NCBI GenBank assembly: GCA_025800105.1
Contig: JAOXSG010001222.1
Location: 1 to 39,494, forward strand
Length of the DNA stretch: 39,494 bases
Direction: 5' to 3'
From: Cohaesibacter sp.
GTDB lineage: Bacteria > Pseudomonadota > Alphaproteobacteria > Rhizobiales > Cohaesibacteraceae
The notes beneath the pieces are model-generated. The model had not been told where the DNA came from, ran no database searches, and saw only the letters and a list, made by a program, of their open reading frames with translations. Shown here piece after piece: positions 25,858 through 34,874 of the stretch. Position numbers and translations under genes: made by a program. Within the stretch, counting starts at the first letter, position 1. Each line of letters begins with the position of its first letter.

Positions 25858-28053
25858 ATGGTTCAAAAATTTGTTGGGGTGTCTTTGAGAACCGCTCTTC
25901 TTCTCAGTGCCTCTTGTTTAACATTGCCAGCCCTTGCACAGAGCCTTGAAGGCGCTGTGCAGGATGAGACATTGCGCACGCTTGTCGTCACTGCCAGCCG
26001 CACAGAGCAGAGCCTGATGGATGTCACACGCTCCGTTGCTGTGGTTGAAAAAGAGCAGATCGAGCAGCAAAATGCCAATGATGTTGCAGATCTGTTGCGC
26101 GATATTCCCGGTGTTGCCATTTTGGAAGGCGCTTCTCCGGGGCTGCGGCGCATTTCCATTCGCGGTGAAGGACAGGCGCGCAATACCATTTTGATTGACG
26201 GGCAGGAAGTCTCTGATCATTCCACCTATGGCTCGCTGTTCATGATTGATCCAGCCAATATTGAGCGCGTGGAAGTTGTTAAAGGCCCTTCTTCTGTGTT
26301 GCATGGCTCCAAGGCCATTGGCGGTGTGGTCAATATCATTACAAAAAAAGGGGCAGACAAGCCGCTGGAAATCAGCATCGGCGGTGGCTATGACAGCTCT
26401 ACGGGCGGCTATCAGTCCAATGCAAGTGCTGCTGGCTCCAGCGATGATTGGGACTATCGCCTGTCCCTGACAAAATCCGATCATGGAGACCGCAAAAGCG
26501 GCAGCGGCACGCTGAAGGCCAGCGCCCTTACCAATGGCAGCGCCTTTGAAAACCAGAGCATTTCAGCCAATATTGGCTATAGTCATGGCAATCACAGTCT
26601 TCGTCTGGTGGCTGAAAAGGTTGATATGGCTTCGGATGCCTATGTGGATCCCAAAAGCCTGTCGGCAGCCCGCACTGCTGGCCTTAGCAAATTCATCCTT
26701 GATTTGCCAAAGCGTGATCGCACCAAATTTGGCGTTTTTTATGATGGCACGGATTTGAATGATGTCGTGAAAAAAGTGCATATGGATGCGTATATCCAGC
26801 AGATTGAACGGGTGGTGGATATTGACTTCACACGGGCCACTCCCAATCGGGCAACTTTCCCCTTTGGAACCGAGATCAGCACCAAAAACAAAACAAGCGA
26901 TGATCAAGTGGCCATTGGCTTCAATAGCCAGATTGATCTGACACTTCTCGACAATCACTTAACAATATTTGGCGCGCAAATTGTCCATGACAGTGTTGAT
27001 CGCAATGACAAACGCAATGGCACCAATACACGCATTGTCTTCAATCCAAGAAGCCCCAATTTCAGCTATAATCCGGCTGGTCGCCCCAGCCTGATCAATG
27101 ATAATTTTGACAAGGAAGCCTCTATCACCACTTTCTCTGCTTTTGTGCAGGATGAATGGAGTGTGAGTGATGATTTCTCTATCACCGGGGGCTTGCGTTA
27201 CTTCTATATTGACAGCGAATTGTCAAAAACCAATCAGCCGGGCTATGCACCTTTTAGCAAAAGTGATGATGCATTCATCGGCTCCCTTGGCGTCAATTAT
27301 ACCGGGATCGACAATGTTGCCTTGCGCGGCAACATTTCCCAAGGCTATGTCTATCCGACCCTATTGCAAAATATGCTTGGATCGGTTTTCAGCCCCGGCA
27401 ATGTGATCGAAGCCAATCCGAATTTGAAGGCAGAAAAGAGCATCAATTATGAGATTGGCGCGCGTTTTGACAATGGCGTTGCCATGCTTGATGCCGCCGC
27501 TTTCTATAGCGTTGCTGAGGATTATATCGATTCTGTCTCTTGTGGTCGCTTTGGGGCCGTCTGTACCACAGCGGCTGCGTCCGAGCGCTATGTCAATATT
27601 GACGAGGCAACCACCTATGGGCTTGAGGTTTCCGGCTCCTATCATTTGCAAGCCTGGTCCTTGACGCCTTATTTCTCGGCCACCTTAATGACCCGCGACT
27701 ATAAAGCCTCTGGCATTGAGACCAACAATACCGACATTCCAGCCTTTACCGGCCGGTTTGGTGTGCGCAAATATTGGGATCTGGATGATGATATCGAGTT
27801 TATGAGCGATCTCTATATCCGCACAGCGTCCGAGCGGGAGCTGAATGAGCCATCAAGCCGCGATTATGAAAAGCATGCTGCTTTTACAACGCTCAATTTT
27901 GCCAGCAGTCTGACTTATCAATTTAGTGAGGAACGGAGCCTGCGTCTGAATGCCTCTGTCGAGAATATTTTTGACAAATCCTATACCGAGTCACTCAGCA
28001 GCACCCCTGCGGCGGGACGGGCCTTTAAATTGTCTGGTCAATTGACCTTTTAA
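25858..28053 (+). CDS. TonB-dependent heme/hemoglobin-type outer-membrane receptor
   Basis: 731 residues. A signal peptide (about 1-27, ending ALAQS) is followed by a TonB box-like TLVVTAS near residue 42. The plug domain (about 50-160) includes IRGEGQARNTILIDGQEV and VEVVKGPSSVLHGSKAIGGVVNIIT. The rest is a 22-strand beta-barrel ending in Phe (LSGQLTF). The heme-receptor motif NPNL occurs near residue 519 (EANPNLKAEKS) and a degenerate FRAP-like stretch GYVYPTLLQNM precedes it. It imports heme or hemoglobin-derived heme across the outer membrane. The neighbouring genes (HmuTUV, IsdG-like oxygenase, ExbB/ExbD/TonB) support this. Confidence 0.92.
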   Translation: MVQKFVGVSLRTALLLSASCLTLPALAQSLEGAVQDETLRTLVVTASRTEQSLMDVTRSVAVVEKEQIEQQNANDVADLLRDIPGVAILEGASPGLRRISIRGEGQARNTILIDGQEVSDHSTYGSLFMIDPANIERVEVVKGPSSVLHGSKAIGGVVNIITKKGADKPLEISIGGGYDSSTGGYQSNASAAGSSDDWDYRLSLTKSDHGDRKSGSGTLKASALTNGSAFENQSISANIGYSHGNHSLRLVAEKVDMASDAYVDPKSLSAARTAGLSKFILDLPKRDRTKFGVFYDGTDLNDVVKKVHMDAYIQQIERVVDIDFTRATPNRATFPFGTEISTKNKTSDDQVAIGFNSQIDLTLLDNHLTIFGAQIVHDSVDRNDKRNGTNTRIVFNPRSPNFSYNPAGRPSLINDNFDKEASITTFSAFVQDEWSVSDDFSITGGLRYFYIDSELSKTNQPGYAPFSKSDDAFIGSLGVNYTGIDNVALRGNISQGYVYPTLLQNMLGSVFSPGNVIEANPNLKAEKSINYEIGARFDNGVAMLDAAAFYSVAEDYIDSVSCGRFGAVCTTAAASERYVNIDEATTYGLEVSGSYHLQAWSLTPYFSATLMTRDYKASGIETNNTDIPAFTGRFGVRKYWDLDDDIEFMSDLYIRTASERELNEPSSRDYEKHAAFTTLNFASSLTYQFSEERSLRLNASVENIFDKSYTESLSSTPAAGRAFKLSGQLTF

Positions 28054-28143: not shown

Positions 28144-28467
28144 CTATTCTTTTGGAATGGACAAATCTTCCAGTGTTTCAAAACCGACGAAACGCGGCGG
28201 GCCTTTATATTCCACTTTGGGCTTTGGACGGCGGTGGGATGCCTTGAACTGATCGCTTTTGGTCCAGCCTTCAAACGCCTCGCGCGTTGTCCAAACGGCG
28301 TGAGAAGCATAAAGGATGAAACCGTCTTCATCTTCATGGGCCTTTAGCATCTCGAAACTGATAAATCCTTCAAATTCGTGCAATTTGCTGTCGCGGCTGC
28401 GCCAGATTTCTTCGAAAGCGCTTTCATAGCCCGCTTTCACAAGAAAATGGTTCATTGCAATAAACAT
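28144..28467 (-). CDS. IsdG-type heme-degrading monooxygenase (HmoA/HmuQ-like)
   Basis: 107 residues from the ATG at 28467, which has GGAG seven bases upstream; the 28494 start adds nine residues without support. It is a compact ABM-fold ferredoxin-like protein. The catalytic triad of the IsdG family is intact: Asn6, Trp68 and His78 (FKASHRR) at spacing matching IsdG/IsdI. It should bind heme in the cytosol and open the ring, releasing iron. It stands between the receptor and hmuT, on the opposite strand, and takes the role often filled by HmuS in such loci. Confidence 0.9.
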   Translation of the reverse strand: MFIAMNHFLVKAGYESAFEEIWRSRDSKLHEFEGFISFEMLKAHEDEDGFILYASHAVWTTREAFEGWTKSDQFKASHRRPKPKVEYKGPPRFVGFETLEDLSIPKE

Positions 28468-28621
28468 TTCTGTCTCCTTTTTTATTGCATTCATGGCATC
28501 ATGGACATTTAGAGCTTCTAGGCCAAATCCTGCGCCCAGATCTTGTCTGTCATTGTGCCATGACTGGTCTGGTCTTCATTGATTTTTCGAAAATATGAGT
28601 TTAAAAAGCAAGAAAATTAAC

Positions 28622-28638: not shown

Positions 28639-28683
28639 ATTGGTTTTGATGCAGCACATCTCCACATTTTGCAGGATAATGAC

Positions 28684-29682
28684 ATGAAGATAAGTGTTGA
28701 TCGGCTCCATAGCTCTTTGAAGATGGTTGCCCTCTTTGCAAGCTTTTCTTGCGTTGCTTTGCTGTCTTCGCCCCAACTTCATGCCCAGAACCATGCTCAA
28801 TCGGTCCTCACAGATGCCAATGGCCAGCCTTTGCCTGAGAATGCCAGCGAAAAGGTGGTCAGTGTTGGTGGCTCTCTAACGGAAATTGCCTATGCCCTTG
28901 GCAAAGAAGATGCCTTGATTGCGGTTGATACCACGTCTGTTTTTCCGCCTCGTGCCCTGAAAGACAAGCCCAATGTCGGCTATATGCGGGCGCTGTCTGC
29001 CGAAGGCATTCTGGCTTTGGAACCAACGCTAATTTTGGCAGAAGACGGGGCTGGGCCAGCTGATGTCATTGCCCTGTTGCAAGAGGCGCGGGTGCCATTT
29101 GCCAGCATTCCGGCCCGTTATGACGCGCAAGGCATTATCGACAAGATCCAATTGGTTGGTCAGGCCCTTGCTGCACAAAAAGAAGCCCGTCACTTGGCCG
29201 ATCAGGTGCGCAAGGATCTTGACCTTCTTCAAAGCAAAGTTGCCAATATCCCACCGGCAGAAAAGAAAAAAGTGCTGTTCCTCTTTTCCCTGCGCGGAGA
29301 TCGGTTGATGGTCTCAGGAAAAAACAGTCAGGCATCAGCCATTATCGAGATGGCCGGTGGCGAAAATGTCATGACCAGCTTTGATGGCTTTAAACCTGTC
29401 AGCAATGAAGCCGTTCTCTCAGCTGATCCTGATGTTATCCTGATGATGAGCCGGGCAGGCACTCCCACTGCCTCGCGCGAGCAAGTGCTGTCTCACCCGG
29501 CTCTCTCAGCTACCAAAGCCGCTCAATCCGGTTCTCTTGTGGTGATGCCGGGCATGTATTTGCTGGGCTTTGGGCCAAGGACGGCTCATGCAGTTGCAGA
29601 TCTTGCCGATCATCTTTATCCCGATCACAATCTTGGCTCTTCCGCTCTCTTTTCAGAACAGAAAACAGGGAGCGCTCACTAA
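28684..29682 (+). CDS. hmuT: Heme ABC transporter periplasmic heme-binding protein
   Basis: 332 residues from the ATG at 28684, backed by AGGA seven bases upstream; the TTG at 28669 is less likely. It has an N-terminal signal peptide (through about residue 35, LHAQ) and then a PeripBP/TroA-like two-lobe fold beginning KVVSVGGSLTEIAYALG. The NVGYMRALSAEGILALEPTLIL segment carries the Tyr expected to coordinate heme. It receives heme from the outer-membrane receptor and hands it to HmuU. It is followed by hmuU after two bases and is the first gene of the transport operon. Confidence 0.92.
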   Translation: MKISVDRLHSSLKMVALFASFSCVALLSSPQLHAQNHAQSVLTDANGQPLPENASEKVVSVGGSLTEIAYALGKEDALIAVDTTSVFPPRALKDKPNVGYMRALSAEGILALEPTLILAEDGAGPADVIALLQEARVPFASIPARYDAQGIIDKIQLVGQALAAQKEARHLADQVRKDLDLLQSKVANIPPAEKKKVLFLFSLRGDRLMVSGKNSQASAIIEMAGGENVMTSFDGFKPVSNEAVLSADPDVILMMSRAGTPTASREQVLSHPALSATKAAQSGSLVVMPGMYLLGFGPRTAHAVADLADHLYPDHNLGSSALFSEQKTGSAH

Positions 29683-29684
29683 TC

Positions 29685-30773
29685 ATGAGATCGGCTGCAC
29701 ATCCCGGTTCCGCATCCCTGTCTGGTGACAGATCACTGCTTGGCTGGACCAGCTTGCTGGTTCTCTCGCTGATCCTGATTTGTGTGGCTATTGTCTCTGT
29801 AACGCAAGGGGCCAGTGATCTGAGTGCCGTCCGGCTTCTTTCTTTTCTGTCAAGCTGGATAACAGATCAGAATGAGGGCATGAGCCGCCGCGATGCGATT
29901 ATTCTGTTTGATATTCGCCTGCCGCGTCTGGCTTTGGGATTGCTGGTTGGTGCGGCGCTGGCCACCTCCGGGGCCTGCCTGCAAGGATTGTTCCGCAACC
30001 CTTTGGCTGATCCGGGCATCATTGGCATTTCTGCCGGGGCTACGCTTGCCGCTATTCTGGCCATTGTGCTGGGCAATAGTCTGTTTGCGCCCCTAGAGGC
30101 ATTCTTGGGGCTATATATGCTGCCGGTTTTTGCCTTTTTTGGCAGTCTGATTGCCACCATCACCCTTTACACCATTGCCACACATCGCGGGCAAACCTCG
30201 GTTGCCACCATGTTGCTGGCCGGGATTGCCCTTGCCGCCATCTTGGGCGCTGGAGCGGGGATCCTGACCTATCTCTCGGATGATCAGCAGCTGCGTGATT
30301 TGACATTTTGGTCCATGGGCGGACTGGGTGGTGCCACATGGGGCAAGGTTTTCACCTGCCTTCCCTTCATCGCTCTTTCGCTTTTTGCCATTCCCTTCTT
30401 TGCCAAGGGCTTAAATGCCCTCTTGCTGGGGGATCATCAGGCGCGTCATATGGGCATTGATGTTCAGACATTGAAGCGATCTTTGGTTTTGTGCATTGCT
30501 TTGGCGGTTGGGGCTGCGGTCTCTGTTTCTGGCACCATTGGTTTTCTTGGCATCATTGTGCCGCATATTTTGCGTCTTGTGATTGGGCCGGATCACCGTT
30601 TTTTGCTGCCTGCATCAGCGCTTTTGGGGGCGATTATTCTGGTTCTTGCCGATATGATTGCGCGCACCATTGTTGCCCCTGCTGAACTTCCCATTGGCAT
30701 TATCATGTCAGCGCTTGGGGGGCCTTTCTTCTTGTGGCTTTTGCTGAAAAACAGACAGGTGCTGGCCCTATGA
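29685..30773 (+). CDS. hmuU: Heme ABC transporter permease (FecCD/BtuC family)
   Basis: 362 residues with about ten membrane segments and the FecCD signatures LPRLALGLLVGAALATSGACLQGLFRNPLADPGIIGIS (in two pieces), SGTIGFLGIIVPHI and ELPIGIIMSALGGPFF. It forms the membrane channel of the heme importer. It overlaps hmuV by four bases (ATGA), which supports one operon hmuT-hmuU-hmuV. Confidence 0.95.
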   Translation: MRSAAHPGSASLSGDRSLLGWTSLLVLSLILICVAIVSVTQGASDLSAVRLLSFLSSWITDQNEGMSRRDAIILFDIRLPRLALGLLVGAALATSGACLQGLFRNPLADPGIIGISAGATLAAILAIVLGNSLFAPLEAFLGLYMLPVFAFFGSLIATITLYTIATHRGQTSVATMLLAGIALAAILGAGAGILTYLSDDQQLRDLTFWSMGGLGGATWGKVFTCLPFIALSLFAIPFFAKGLNALLLGDHQARHMGIDVQTLKRSLVLCIALAVGAAVSVSGTIGFLGIIVPHILRLVIGPDHRFLLPASALLGAIILVLADMIARTIVAPAELPIGIIMSALGGPFFLWLLLKNRQVLAL

Positions 30774-31600
30774 CGACCGAGATTATTCTGGAAAATATCA
30801 GCCTGACGCTTGGTAGCAAACGCGTTTTAAAGCCGCTTGATTTGTCTTTGCGCTCTTCAGACCTCACCATTTTGGTCGGGCCCAATGGTGCGGGCAAATC
30901 CAGTTTGTTGAAACTGATTTGTGGTGACCATCAGCCCGATCAGGGACGCATTCTTTTTGATCAAATCGCTTTGCCTCACTGGCCGCTTGATAAACTGGCC
31001 CGGCGCCGCGCCGTGATGACCCAATCAAGCGAGATTGCCTTTCCCTTTACCGTTCTGGAAGTGGTGCGGATGGGGGCCAATCTTCAAGCCGTTGATGCGC
31101 ATGATGCTGACAGGCGCGCCATGCTGGCCCTTGAAGCGGTTGATATGGAGAGGTTGGCGGGGCAACGCTTTCAAGCCCTATCCGGTGGCGAGCAACAACG
31201 CGTGCAACTGGCCAGAACTCTTGCTCAGGTCTGGTCGCCTTGTCATGAAGGGCAAGCCAATTTCCTGCTTCTTGATGAGCCTATTTCCAATCTGGATATC
31301 CGTCATCAAATTGAATTGTTGCAATTGGCCAAGGATTATACAAAATCCGGCGGCGGCTGTCTGGCTGTCCTGCATGATTTGAATATTGCCTCGATGTTTG
31401 CCGACCGCTTGCTGGTGATGCAACAGGGGCAAATTGTGGGTGATGGCCCGCCCAATGAGATCTTGACCAATGACTTGATTGCCCAGATTTTTGGAATCAG
31501 GTTACAGGTCAATCGTCCTCCGGGTTGTCCTATCCCCTATATTCTTCCACAAACCTTCTTTGATGCCGCCGAACCCCAACATATGTCAAATCCAAGCTGA
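30770..31600 (+). CDS. hmuV: Heme ABC transporter ATP-binding protein
   Basis: 276 residues from the ATG overlapping the hmuU stop; the longer frame at 30734 lies inside hmuU. Walker A GPNGAGKSSLLKL (about residues 37-49), signature LSGGEQQRVQLART, Walker B FLLLDEPISNLDI and switch His in VLHDLN are all intact. It drives heme entry to the cytosol. Confidence 0.95.
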   Translation: MTTEIILENISLTLGSKRVLKPLDLSLRSSDLTILVGPNGAGKSSLLKLICGDHQPDQGRILFDQIALPHWPLDKLARRRAVMTQSSEIAFPFTVLEVVRMGANLQAVDAHDADRRAMLALEAVDMERLAGQRFQALSGGEQQRVQLARTLAQVWSPCHEGQANFLLLDEPISNLDIRHQIELLQLAKDYTKSGGGCLAVLHDLNIASMFADRLLVMQQGQIVGDGPPNEILTNDLIAQIFGIRLQVNRPPGCPIPYILPQTFFDAAEPQHMSNPS

Positions 31601-31656
31601 TACAAACAATCTAGTCTTTGACATTCAGCTATAAACCAGCCTTCAGGAACAAAACC

Positions 31657-32076
31657 ATGCGCCCCTTGATTCTTTCTCTTGCCTTTGTCTTGATGCCTCT
31701 TTTTGGCGCTGCTCATGCGCAAGGCTCCCAATCTCTCGATCTGGAATTGAATAACAGCGTTCAGCATGATGGCGTTTGTCGTTTGAGTTTCATGGTGCGC
31801 AATGGCTTAAGCGTTCCTGTCACGGATCTGGGACTGGAAGTTGTCTTGCTCAACAAAGACGGGCTGGCTCAGGATTTTATGATGCTGCGCACAGGGGAAT
31901 TGATTTCTGGCAAGCGGCGCATTCGTCAATTTGATCTTCCAGATATCGCGTGTGGTGATATTGGCGAAATCCTGATCAATGATGTTGCTGATTGTCAGGG
32001 AGAAGACCTGACCCCCGCCTCCTGTCTGGTGAAACTCAAGCCCTCTTCTCGCACTGCTATCAAGCTTGGCCTGTAA
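31657..32076 (+). CDS. Secreted protein of unknown function in the heme/TonB operon
   Basis: 139 residues from the ATG at 31657 (AGGA nine bases upstream). A clear Sec signal peptide (about 1-23, ending AHAQG) precedes a small beta-rich domain with Cys at GVCRLSF, DIACGDI, VADCQG and ASCLV, possibly two disulfides. I do not recognise a named family. Its place between hmuV and exbB, with short gaps, suggests a periplasmic accessory of TonB energisation or heme handling. The alternative is a general secreted protein unrelated to heme. Confidence 0.75.
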   Translation: MRPLILSLAFVLMPLFGAAHAQGSQSLDLELNNSVQHDGVCRLSFMVRNGLSVPVTDLGLEVVLLNKDGLAQDFMMLRTGELISGKRRIRQFDLPDIACGDIGEILINDVADCQGEDLTPASCLVKLKPSSRTAIKLGL

Positions 32077-32106: not shown

Positions 32107-32140
32107 CTTCTTTCTTCTGGTGCTCCGAAAGTTCCTTGTT

Positions 32141-33103
32141 ATGACGTCGTCCTCTTTTTCTTCCCATACTTCTTTTCCCCAATTGGCGCAGGCCAGTCAG
32201 ACTGATGTAAATCCATCGCTCGTTCAGGATCCAATAACAGCGCAAGGCATTTCCGCTTCAACTGAGCCAAAGAGTGCTGACAGTGGGACAAGTCTTTCTG
32301 CCTCTCCAGTAACAGATACAGCCGTAACCGAGGCCGCCCCCATTGCATCCCAGCCCTCTCTTGCTATGGATCCAGATCTGGTTGTCTCGCCCCCTCCCCC
32401 GCCGCAAAGCTTTCTAGAGAATGCCATGGGGCAAATTCAGTCCATTATGGAAATGGGTGGCCCTGTTGTTGTGCTGTTGAGCATTTTGTCCGTTCTGTCG
32501 CTGACCGTAATCCTTTATAAATTGTGGCAATTTTCCTGGCTTGGCATTGGCCGTCACAAGCGGGCCCGCAAGGCGCTTTTGCAATGGCGCCAGGGCCAGC
32601 AAGTTGAAGCCATTGACTTGCTGGCCAAGGGCAAAGCACCGGTGAGTGTGGTTTTGCTTCATGCCATGCGCGGGCAATTGTTTCACCCTGACAAGGGCGC
32701 ACTGATCCGTGAAGATGTGGAGCGTGTGGCCCTTAGCAGCTTGTCCAAAACCCGGTTTTTGTTGCGGTTTTTGGAAACAGTTGGTCAGATTTCGCCTTTG
32801 CTGGGTCTGTTTGGGACTGTGATTGGCATGATTGAGGCCTTCCAGCGGTTGCAACAGGCTGGTGCCAGCGTTGATCCATCTGTTTTGGCGGGCGGCATTT
32901 GGGTTGCGCTTTTGACCACGGCAGTGGGCCTTGCGGTTGCGATCCCTGCCAGCCTGTTTGCAGACTGGTTCAGCTCACGGGTGGAACGAGAGCAGGATGT
33001 GATTGAAGAATTGGTAACTTCGGTTCTGACTGGTCAAATTACCGATGCGTCTTCCACGCCTGCCAGTTCTGTGGTTCATGGAGATCCGGCTTATGCGACT
33101 TAA
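32141..33103 (+). CDS. exbB: ExbB/TolQ/MotA-family energiser subunit
   Basis: 320 residues from the ATG at 32141; a GTG at 32120 is an alternative and neither has a strong ribosome-binding site. A long polar N-terminus (to about residue 85, ending in VSPPPPPQ) precedes three membrane segments (about 108-128, 205-225, 250-270) with LGLFGTVIGMIEAF and GGIWVALLTTAVGLAVAIPA. It forms the inner-membrane ring that drives TonB using proton motive force. At the position of the usual Glu (E. coli ExbB Glu176, GIAEALL) it has Val255 (GIWVALL). It overlaps the first exbD. Confidence 0.9.
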   Translation: MTSSSFSSHTSFPQLAQASQTDVNPSLVQDPITAQGISASTEPKSADSGTSLSASPVTDTAVTEAAPIASQPSLAMDPDLVVSPPPPPQSFLENAMGQIQSIMEMGGPVVVLLSILSVLSLTVILYKLWQFSWLGIGRHKRARKALLQWRQGQQVEAIDLLAKGKAPVSVVLLHAMRGQLFHPDKGALIREDVERVALSSLSKTRFLLRFLETVGQISPLLGLFGTVIGMIEAFQRLQQAGASVDPSVLAGGIWVALLTTAVGLAVAIPASLFADWFSSRVEREQDVIEELVTSVLTGQITDASSTPASSVVHGDPAYAT

Positions 33104-33476
33104 TGCACCAAGGCGCAGACGCTCGGTGGTGGGGTTAACCTCGCTGATTGATGTGATCTTTTTGTTGCTGTTGTTTTTTATGCTGTCCTCTACCTTTTCG
33201 CGCTATAGCCAGCTTGATCTGGGGGTTGCAGGCACTGGCTCTGGCGCGGGAGAGCGGCCCAAATTGCTGATTTCCATTGCTGAGGTAGGTGCGATCCGTC
33301 TGAATGGCAAACCAACCAGTTTGGATGATCTGGATGCCGCCATTGAAGATTATCGGGATAAAGGGGTCAAACGGGCTGTGCTGGTGCCAAAAGGTGATGT
33401 GGCGGTGCAACGTCTGGTCATGACATTGGAGCGTCTGAAACAGAGCGGGCTTTCGTCCGTTTCCTTGGCCAATTAA
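33093..33476 (+). CDS. exbD: ExbD-family subunit 1 (membrane Asp present)
   Basis: 127 residues from the ATG at 33093 (overlapping exbB by 11 bases); earlier in-frame starts lie inside exbB without ribosome-binding sites. A basic N-terminus (RRRR) is followed by one transmembrane helix TSLIDVIFLLLLFFMLSS and a periplasmic ExbD domain. Asp20 matches the proton-carrying Asp25 of E. coli ExbD. With ExbB it converts proton flow into TonB motion. Confidence 0.92.
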   Translation: MRLNAPRRRRSVVGLTSLIDVIFLLLLFFMLSSTFSRYSQLDLGVAGTGSGAGERPKLLISIAEVGAIRLNGKPTSLDDLDAAIEDYRDKGVKRAVLVPKGDVAVQRLVMTLERLKQSGLSSVSLAN

Positions 33477-33489
33477 AGGGAAGGTACTT

Positions 33490-33948
33490 ATGCATCTGAC
33501 CAAAGCCAGACAGAAAAAGCGTGTGATGCCGGAAAATACCATTCCGCTGATCAATATCGTGTTTCTGATGCTGATTTTCTTTTTGATTGCAGGCACGGTT
33601 GCCCCGCCCGTCTCGACCAAGCTAAAGCCGCCCAAATCCGAAGAATTGCCTTTGATGCCGCCTGCGGGCAATGCTGTGGAAATACTTGCTGATGGGACTC
33701 TGATCCATCGCGGGCAAACGCTGACGCTGGACGAGATTTTGCTGCGTTTCCCAGCACCGGTCGTGGCAGAGACAGGCTTGCCAGCTCAAAGCAAAGAAGG
33801 CTTTGGCACGGATGGCAATGCGCAAGATGTGCTGCATATTCTGGCCGATAAAAAGCTATCCACCAGCAAGCTTATGCCTGTCCTACAGGCCTTTCGTGCC
33901 CATGGTCACAAGGCAATCCGTCTTGTGACGATCAGAGGAGGCAATTGA
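33490..33948 (+). CDS. exbD: ExbD-family subunit 2 with Asn in place of the membrane Asp
   Basis: 152 residues; ribosome-binding GGGAAGG before the ATG. Its transmembrane helix reads TIPLINIVFLMLIFFLIAG, so Asn22 stands where ExbD proteins have their essential Asp. The periplasmic domain (about 40-152) is longer than that of subunit 1. The gene is 13 bases after exbD 1 and overlaps tonB, so both subunits are produced together. It probably pairs with subunit 1 as an asymmetric ExbD dimer (inference). Confidence 0.9.
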   Translation: MHLTKARQKKRVMPENTIPLINIVFLMLIFFLIAGTVAPPVSTKLKPPKSEELPLMPPAGNAVEILADGTLIHRGQTLTLDEILLRFPAPVVAETGLPAQSKEGFGTDGNAQDVLHILADKKLSTSKLMPVLQAFRAHGHKAIRLVTIRGGN

Positions 33949-34874
33949 TGCGAACCTTTGGCCTGACGCTTTTTGCTCTTGTCTCGCTTGTTGTGCATGT
34001 CACTGCGGCGGCTTTTTTCCTGAGCAATAGCAATGAAATTCAGGAAGAGCGCGGCGCTGGAGCCACGGCCTTGGAAGTTGGCGATTTGTTCAATTCCAGT
34101 GCGCAGGAACAAGTCGAAGCGCAAGATTTGCCGGAAGCGAAAACCACGCCCAAAGAGCTGGAAGCCACAAAAGTGGTGCAAGCCATTCCTGTCAAAAGCT
34201 TTGTGCAGGAGCAGGTTCAGCCCAAACGCATTGAAAGTCCCAAGGCGCTTGAGGTTCCTGATACTTTGCTCAAAGAGCTGACAGCCAATAAAGAGCTTAC
34301 CAAACCGGATCTGTTCAAGCCACGCGAAATCAAACCGATTGAAGCCAAAGCTCTCAAGCCGAAAAAGAAGATCAAACAGGCCAAATTGCAAAAGCCCAAA
34401 GAGGTGAAAAAGGTTAAGCCCCCCAAGAAGGTCGTAAAAAGCAAACCTAAAAAGAAAATCGCCAAGAAAAAGAAGGTGAAAAAGAAAGCTCAGAAAGCCT
34501 CAAAGGCAAGTAAGAAAGGTGGCTTGAGCGCCAATAAGAAGGGCCGCAAAGGTGCAAGCGGAGGCAATGGTGGCAAAAAGCAAAATGTCAATGGCCGTGC
34601 TCTGACCACCAGCTATATGGCAAAAGTGCGCAGAAAGATCGAGCGCAAGAAACGCGCCCTTGGCCGCAGAAATACCGGCACCGCCGTGGTCCGCTTTACC
34701 ATTACGCCCGCTGGTCGTCTGGCGGGTGTTAAATTGGCGCGATCATCGGGCAATGCCCGCATTGATAAGGCGGCTTTGAGCATGGTGCGTCGCGCTGCGC
34801 CTTTTGGGGCTTTTCCCGCCGGGATGAGCAAAAAGAACCAGACACGCAGTCTGCCGATTAAATTTTCACGCTGA
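33948..34874 (+). CDS. tonB: TonB-family energy transducer
   Basis: 308 residues from the ATG overlapping the exbD 2 stop (TGATG) with AGAGGAGG upstream. One N-terminal membrane anchor (about 4-26), then a long spacer very rich in Lys and Pro (residues about 120-205, for example KPKKKIAKKKKVKKK), then a C-terminal TonB domain (about 220-308) including TAVVRFTITPAGRLAGVKL and SMVRRAAPFGAFP. It spans the periplasm and contacts the TonB box of the heme receptor. The spacer is more lysine-rich than the classic Glu-Pro/Lys-Pro spacer. Confidence 0.92.
   Translation: MRTFGLTLFALVSLVVHVTAAAFFLSNSNEIQEERGAGATALEVGDLFNSSAQEQVEAQDLPEAKTTPKELEATKVVQAIPVKSFVQEQVQPKRIESPKALEVPDTLLKELTANKELTKPDLFKPREIKPIEAKALKPKKKIKQAKLQKPKEVKKVKPPKKVVKSKPKKKIAKKKKVKKKAQKASKASKKGGLSANKKGRKGASGGNGGKKQNVNGRALTTSYMAKVRRKIERKKRALGRRNTGTAVVRFTITPAGRLAGVKLARSSGNARIDKAALSMVRRAAPFGAFPAGMSKKNQTRSLPIKFSR

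Follow-up and report, generated by a model that had tools for sequence, protein, structure and literature searches.

An Asp-type and an Asn-type ExbD are paired in a conserved variant of the Ton energiser, read from a Cohaesibacter heme uptake locus

Introduction

In the Ton motor, two ExbD helices stand within an ExbB pentamer, with Asp25 of ExbD near Thr148 and Thr181 of ExbB (PMC6778125). This Asp has been described as strictly conserved (PMC9008036), and the E. coli variant ExbD(D25N) as inactive (PMC11658791). One TonB D-box peptide is gripped by two ExbD domains (PMC10907165), and the rotary models treated in PMC12215075 all suppose that each proton drives a turn of 36 degrees and that the channel switches back and forth between two essential Asp residues.

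The stretch of Cohaesibacter sp. DNA analyzed here (contig JAOXSG010001222.1 of assembly GCA_025800105.1, 39,494 nucleotides; hereafter the window) carries two tandem exbD genes, and the second encodes Asn where the essential Asp is expected. Is this an accident of one genome or a conserved component of a Ton motor, and if it is a component, how might such a motor work?

A heme uptake locus with two different exbD genes

The window contains a heme uptake locus with the following genes.

25858..28053, + strand: TonB-dependent receptor, closest to the heme/hemoglobin type (276.2 bits, below the cut-off of 316.85)
28144..28494, - strand: HmuQ-like heme-degrading protein with an ABM domain (121.6 bits, below the cut-off of 130)
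28669..29682, + strand: periplasmic binding protein of the heme/B12/siderophore kind (Peripla_BP_2)
29685..30773, + strand: FecCD-type permease (profile match)
30734..31600, + strand: heme ABC transporter ATPase (297.7 bits, cut-off 261)
31618..32076, + strand: small secreted protein, modeled as a beta-sandwich, with no assigned function
32120..33103, + strand: exbB, GIW-type ExbB with a MotA_ExbB domain (profile matches, alignment)
33093..33476, + strand: exbD1, Asp-type ExbD, 127 aa (Pfam, HMMER alignment)
33490..33948, + strand: exbD2, Asn-type ExbD, 152 aa (Pfam, HMMER alignment, AlphaFold2 model)
33948..34874, + strand: tonB, with a TonB_C domain and an N-terminal SLVVH (S-xxx-H) motif (profile matches)

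The energiser genes are tightly packed. The exbD1 ATG at 33093 lies within the 3' end of exbB (stop codon 33101-33103), 13 bp separate exbD1 from exbD2, and the start of tonB overlaps the exbD2 stop, in agreement with the preliminary description, which had both exbD genes coupled with exbB and tonB. The small secreted protein, whose gene usually precedes exbB in loci of the heme branch, had no Pfam or NCBIfam match; its four Cys residues were invariant among 44 aligned relatives, and its confident model (pLDDT 93.5) was closest among solved folds to E. coli IrmA (TMq 0.57). It is a possible Ton or heme accessory.

The translation of exbD1 reads ...GLTSLIDVIFLLLLFF, with Asp20 encoded by GAT, and that of exbD2 reads ...NTIPLINIVFLMLIFF, with Asn22 encoded by AAT, so that the residues and coordinates given in the preliminary description were correct. 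HMMER alignment placed Asn22 on the essential Asp25 of the ExbD chains 7ajq_F (Serratia) and 6tyi_Y (E. coli); at this position, ExbD1 has Asp and ExbD2 does not. Both proteins matched PF02472 (ExbD/TolR) above the Pfam cut-off of 25.4, with 70.4 bits for ExbD1 and 49.5 bits for ExbD2, and neither reached the cut-off of an NCBIfam ExbD equivalog model.

The AlphaFold2 model of ExbD2 (pLDDT 80.2) featured a single transmembrane helix (residues 18-36) holding residue 22, followed by a periplasmic alpha/beta domain. The top Foldseek match, over the periplasmic domain, was E. coli ExbD with the TonB D-box peptide (8vgc_A, TMt 0.76, probability 1.00); 8p9r_A and 8pek also matched with a probability of 1.00. 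As modeled, ExbD2 thus has the one transmembrane helix and the periplasmic domain of the ExbD/TolR fold.

Conservation of the Asp/Asn pairing

Related loci were collected by several routes. The best 80 of 469 confirmed relatives of the alignment of Asn-type proteins, a set biased to close kin, are referred to as the named loci and were located with peptide patterns that leave out the Asp/Asn site. All 80 encoded Asp in the first and Asn in the second ExbD (a D/N pair), and the closest named relative of the window within this set was Cohaesibacter marisflavi, with an ExbD2 identity of 61%. The wider net comprised profile searches of 192 class genomes and 397 phylum genomes, a Pfam search of 150 genomes, and 60 more places that were read. 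The profiles for the 192 and 397 genomes were made from Asn-type proteins, sampling was within the window's own phylum, and up to 10 candidates per genome were scored in the 397-genome search and in the first-ExbD search described below.

In the family of the window, 13 of 20 genomes matched, the window's own included, at 16 places, and every second ExbD had Asn. The census (loci L003-L255, plasmids included) held 252 ExbD gene groups, or 244 without duplicates. Behind an ExbB with a GI[WF] motif, 164 of the 168 two-gene systems were D/N and four were D/D. Other ExbB types were accompanied by 63 single ExbDs, all with Asp, or by tandem pairs (seven, all D/D), and four D/N pairs among the 244 groups had no exbB on the locus. 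Outside the class, D/N pairs were carried by G420, G332, G324, and G363, belonging to at least three family codes among the matches listed for the 397 phylum genomes.

A further profile was built from 24 first ExbDs only, all from D/N operons, so its ranking favors D/N. In 387 class genomes, every listed place down to E 5.1e-27 was taken (n = 68) and the next gene was read. This kind of system was found at 66 of the 68 places; at the remaining two, the ExbB was of another type and was accompanied by a single Asp-type ExbD. The first ExbD had Asp in 66/66 systems; the second had Asn in 64 (63 plus the one-frame reading L118), Asp in one (L133), and Ser in one (L353). A GI[WF]-type exbB was on the locus in 65 of these systems and elsewhere in the genome in the remaining one (G198), and the D/N cases were spread over 57 genomes and 25 family codes of the class. 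In this search, with no second ExbD in the query, Asn was retained in 64 of 66 systems, more than chance would give, and we rejected an isolated mutation or a sequencing error.

The pairing marks a distinct, conserved, and general variant of the Ton energiser. The preliminary description had spoken of a possible stable, poorly studied energiser class, which understated the case. It had also proposed an alignment of homologs, in which Asp in other second ExbDs would point to an isolated mutation; such an Asp proved to be the exception (4 of 168 GI[WF] systems, 1 of 66 systems from the first-ExbD query).

Codon usage, selection, and phylogeny

Among 168 distinct pairs chosen as D/N, Asn was encoded by AAC in 101 and by AAT in 67. 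Mean pairwise identity was 34% among second ExbDs and 35% among first ExbDs, with 22% between the two proteins of one locus. Positions -4 to +12 relative to the Asn held no ionisable residue in any of the 168 second ExbDs. In 11 close pairs, over frames that also took in some in-frame bases ahead of the start, dN/dS was 0.05-0.40 for exbD2; for exbD1, it was similar at 0.07-0.48, with a single pair reaching 1.04 from few changes. Decay of exbD2 was rejected on these values, which stayed below 0.41 in all 11 pairs.

In a tree of 262 rows, computed with the site removed and from few columns, first and second ExbDs were largely separate. One clade united 106 of 110 second ExbDs with an SH-aLRT of 89, below the 95 mark, and the four Asp-bearing second ExbDs sat at three separate points within it. 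This tree is compatible with an ancient replacement of Asp by Asn that was reversed on rare occasions, with modest support.

The partner of ExbD2 within genomes

The single-contig genomes G008 and G018 each contained exactly three ExbD-family matches, namely a TolR encoded next to a TolQ-type gene and the two members of a single D/N pair, and the same set was found in G002 (20 contigs). TolR with a divergent D/N pair was found in G012. In these genomes, ExbD1 is therefore the only Ton-type ExbD available to ExbD2. Pairing of ExbD2 with some other Ton ExbD was rejected as a general rule, as none besides TolR was found in G002, G008, and G018 (E 0.001).

In G008, G198, and G544, no exbB adjoined the pair; a GIW-type exbB was located elsewhere in the genome (L363, L365, and L367, respectively) with no ExbD beside it, and in G008 a TonB match adjoined this exbB. 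Since the two exbD genes were adjacent in these three genomes, they stay together when the operon splits. Across eight loci, the genes overlapped or nearly touched, with gaps of -4 to +13 bp.

The accompanying ExbB and TonB proteins

Thr233 and Thr267 of the window ExbB correspond to T148 and T181 of E. coli ExbB, and both pore Thr residues were kept in 164/164 ExbBs of D/N systems. The window ExbB also has a long N-terminal stretch ahead of its first predicted membrane helix. Glu176 of E. coli ExbB, which we take to be the defining mark of the Ton energiser ExbB family, corresponds to Val262 in the window. Of 164 ExbBs of D/N systems, 119 had Val at this position and 30 had Glu; Val was found in all 100 ExbBs with a readable motif from a narrower set of D/N loci. 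Among other ExbB/TolQ proteins, 46 of 70 had Glu, so that this residue is no universal mark either. Since Glu was kept in 30 of 164, its loss is frequent yet not tied to Asn, and we rejected it as a strict companion of the Asn-type ExbD.

In 73 of the named loci (best 80 of 469), the gene for the small secreted protein was followed by exbB, the Asp-type exbD, the Asn-type exbD, and tonB in this order. A downstream tonB was present in 77 of these 80, the three without it being loci of 5.9-6.2 kb that end after the pair. SxxxH was found in 56 of the 77 TonBs, and the window TonB has both this motif and the TonB_C domain. Of 20 loci drawn from a wide range of families, 15 had a same-strand tonB match immediately downstream (13 of 18 D/N, 2 of 2 D/D), and the small secreted protein was found in one.

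When large neighboring genes were considered at 12 of these wide-family loci, TonB-dependent receptors were found in four: two of the heme kind (L257, L259), one siderophore receptor (L263), and one untyped (L262). The other large neighbors encoded unrelated enzymes, a helicase, a transporter, and surface proteins, and one plasmid copy adjoined a FepA-type siderophore receptor. With receptors of both the heme and the siderophore kind beside wide-family loci, the D/N set is a general Ton energiser type and not a heme-specific one. The statement of the preliminary description that an Asn-type ExbD occurs beside an Asp-type one in alphaproteobacterial heme loci holds insofar as such pairs are present there; they are confined neither to heme loci nor to the class.

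Comparison with known motors

Like the ExbB-ExbD-TonB (HasB) motors of E. coli and Serratia, the window system has an ExbB with both pore Thr residues, ExbDs with the common fold and transmembrane motif, a TonB with SxxxH and TonB_C, and a TonB-dependent receptor in the locus. It departs from them in its second, distinct exbD gene, which encodes Asn in place of Asp25, and in its GIW-type ExbB, which in the heme branch has Val at the position of E176.

A published gene set of the same kind is that of the heme operons of Ruegeria sp. TM1040 (hmuR, hyp, exbB, exbD1, exbD1a, tonB), described by Hogle and colleagues, who called exbD1a a duplicate of exbD1 (PMC5225302); by this description, the gene set is the same as that of the window. 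The TM1040 genes are cotranscribed within each cluster and rise 41-201-fold under iron stress (PMC5225302), and no mention of Asp or Asn was found in the text considered. Six Ruegeria loci in our collection (L021, L049, L054, L067, L082, and L098) were all D/N.

Two tandem exbDs are also found in the tonB-exbB-exbD1-exbD2 operon of Xanthomonas (PMC3551730). Judging from the tandems behind other ExbB types, of which seven of seven were D/D, the Xanthomonas pair is presumably D/D as well, in contrast to the D/N operon of the window. In the AglRQ/S gliding motor of Myxococcus, one MotA-like protein has two different MotB-like partners, both described as having the conserved Asp, and whether these form hetero- or homodimers is stated as unknown (PMC9389320). 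This two-partner axle resembles the D/N system, from which it differs by Asp in both partners and by driving gliding rather than TonB. In the 5:2 motors MotAB, TolQR, and GldLM, five ring subunits surround a pair of axle helices (PMC9389320); their axles are described as two copies of one protein, whereas here there are two different ExbDs. GldLM has its critical Glu on the ring protein and can do without the Glu of the axle (PMC8986121), so an axle acid is not universal.

In the passages considered, therefore, a two-partner axle and an acid-less axle each have a precedent or possible precedent, and an Asp/Asn pair has none. A 2026 review of the Ton and Tol motors discusses the asymmetry of the two Asp residues, with no second kind of ExbD in the parts considered (PMC12905483). 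No mention of a natural Asn-type ExbD was found in the open-access papers searched, though the "duplicate" exbD is known; prior notice elsewhere is possible. The same papers yielded nothing relevant on ExbB Glu176 or on mixed MotB dimers.

Discussion

Strict pairing and close gene spacing, taken together with the published structures and models, make a mixed axle with one proton site the simplest reading of the D/N systems. We consider it likely, from the pairing and its conservation, that an ExbD1/ExbD2 heterodimer forms the axle within the ExbB ring, in line with the asymmetric heterodimer with a single protonatable site predicted in the preliminary description. In such a motor, the ExbB pentamer would enclose an obligate dimer of ExbD1 (Asp) and ExbD2 (Asn). 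Protons would be carried by ExbD1 only, and ExbD2 would contribute the other axle helix and the other of the two periplasmic domains that grip TonB. Its Asn would act as a permanently neutral stand-in for a protonated Asp, much as D22N in MotB mimics the protonated state (PMC9389320). The stroke would then depend on a single proton site in each dimer and pass through neutral intermediates alone, with no alternation between two Asp residues, and the built-in asymmetry would decide which of the two ExbDs is turned toward TonB. As such an axle could never be doubly charged, protons would have to be swapped through neutral states, and the motor may take half the protons per turn. Since D25N is described as inactive in E. 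coli, an all-Asn motor is unlikely to work. Other ExbB:ExbD ratios, 5:1 and 6:3, have been reported (PMC9389320) and count against a heterodimer.

A motor with an ExbD1 homodimer as its axle would also fit the data. ExbD2 would then be a separate periplasmic partner in coupling or signaling that binds TonB or peptidoglycan and has a membrane anchor with no proton site. Its modeled periplasmic fold is that of the TonB-binding domain, and the exbD2 of Xanthomonas is required for pectate-induced signaling and dispensable for iron uptake (PMC3551730). A mere anchor, however, would need no specific Asn in the core of its membrane helix, yet the residue is kept in 64 of 66 systems and the site does not drift to hydrophobic residues; we regard this alternative as rather unlikely. 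The inactivity of E. coli D25N (PMC11658791) also means that mixed rings could be poisoned, in which case ExbD2 might act as a throttle, forming low-conductance or dead rings so that the proportion of ExbD1 to ExbD2 governs motor output or curbs proton leak. The narrow range of gaps at the eight loci suggests a constant ratio, poorly suited to tuning, and the two exbD genes formed a tandem at every D/N locus examined, with exbD2 never placed apart, which makes a throttle quite improbable.

That the Asn itself joins in ion transfer, through a water wire or by coordinating Na+, with both sites working, appears more improbable still. The single Ser replacement (L353) keeps a polar side chain, as this idea would have it, but Asn does not titrate near neutral pH and no other ionisable residue lies in the helix core of the 168 pairs. 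As for a chance or relaxed substitution without function, one base separates the Asp and Asn codons and four second ExbDs have Asp; against this stand 25 family groups in the class and three outside it (among the matches listed), dN/dS below 0.41 for exbD2 in 11 pairs, and the use of both Asn codons, so that this explanation is hardly credible.

Returning to the heterodimeric axle, the chances seem to us about even that the D/N systems form a widespread, ancient class of 5:2 motors with an obligately heterodimeric axle, a single proton site, neutral intermediates only, no two-site alternation, and perhaps half the protons per turn. If so, the conserved D/N pairing challenges the rotary models of Ton, Tol, and Mot that assume alternation between two sites. 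Whether the swap passes through a doubly protonated or a doubly charged state is described as not settled in any 5:2 motor (PMC9389320); in a naturally occurring D/N pair the doubly charged state is eliminated, and such a pair, if it forms a motor, answers this question directly. The pair also provides a genetic label for each of the two axle subunits in stoichiometric, crosslinking, and cryo-EM work. More generally, a distinct subunit can hide behind the label "duplicate exbD".

Exceptions and additional gene sets

In the census, the second ExbD had Asp at L133, L189, L171, and L025, and a downstream tonB was present at two of these loci (L273 and L274, from the genomes of L171 and L133). Asp at L133/L189, L171, and L025, or Ser at L353, means that the Asn is not absolutely required. 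The Ser (L353) and the Asp at L133, L189, and L171 provide natural test cases. On a Ruegeria conchae plasmid (L025:4510-10715), a related set of small protein-exbB-exbD-exbD (D/D) was followed by DUF4384 and caspase-family proteins with no tonB, and this set adjoined a type VI secretion cluster.

The only Asn-type gene of the census without a readable Asp-type partner was L007, where the adjoining exbD1 is frameshifted; this Cohaesibacter genome has two more D/N copies, L016 and L018, read as intact. At L118:1012-1893, within one more GI[WF] system beyond the 168 of the census, ExbD1 and ExbD2 were read in one frame of 294 residues with Asn in the second half. As the C-terminus of the ExbD1 half is unlike that of other ExbD1s, a natural fusion was dropped as a candidate; a frameshift at the junction is probably the cause, with a fusion possible.

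The Cohaesibacter genomes G003, G011, and G012 (L299-L301) carry a divergent D/N set, which comes with a GIW-type ExbB of its own. Paired matches at similar spacing suggest the same set in G005, G016, and G017, and G010 carries a divergent pair (L017).
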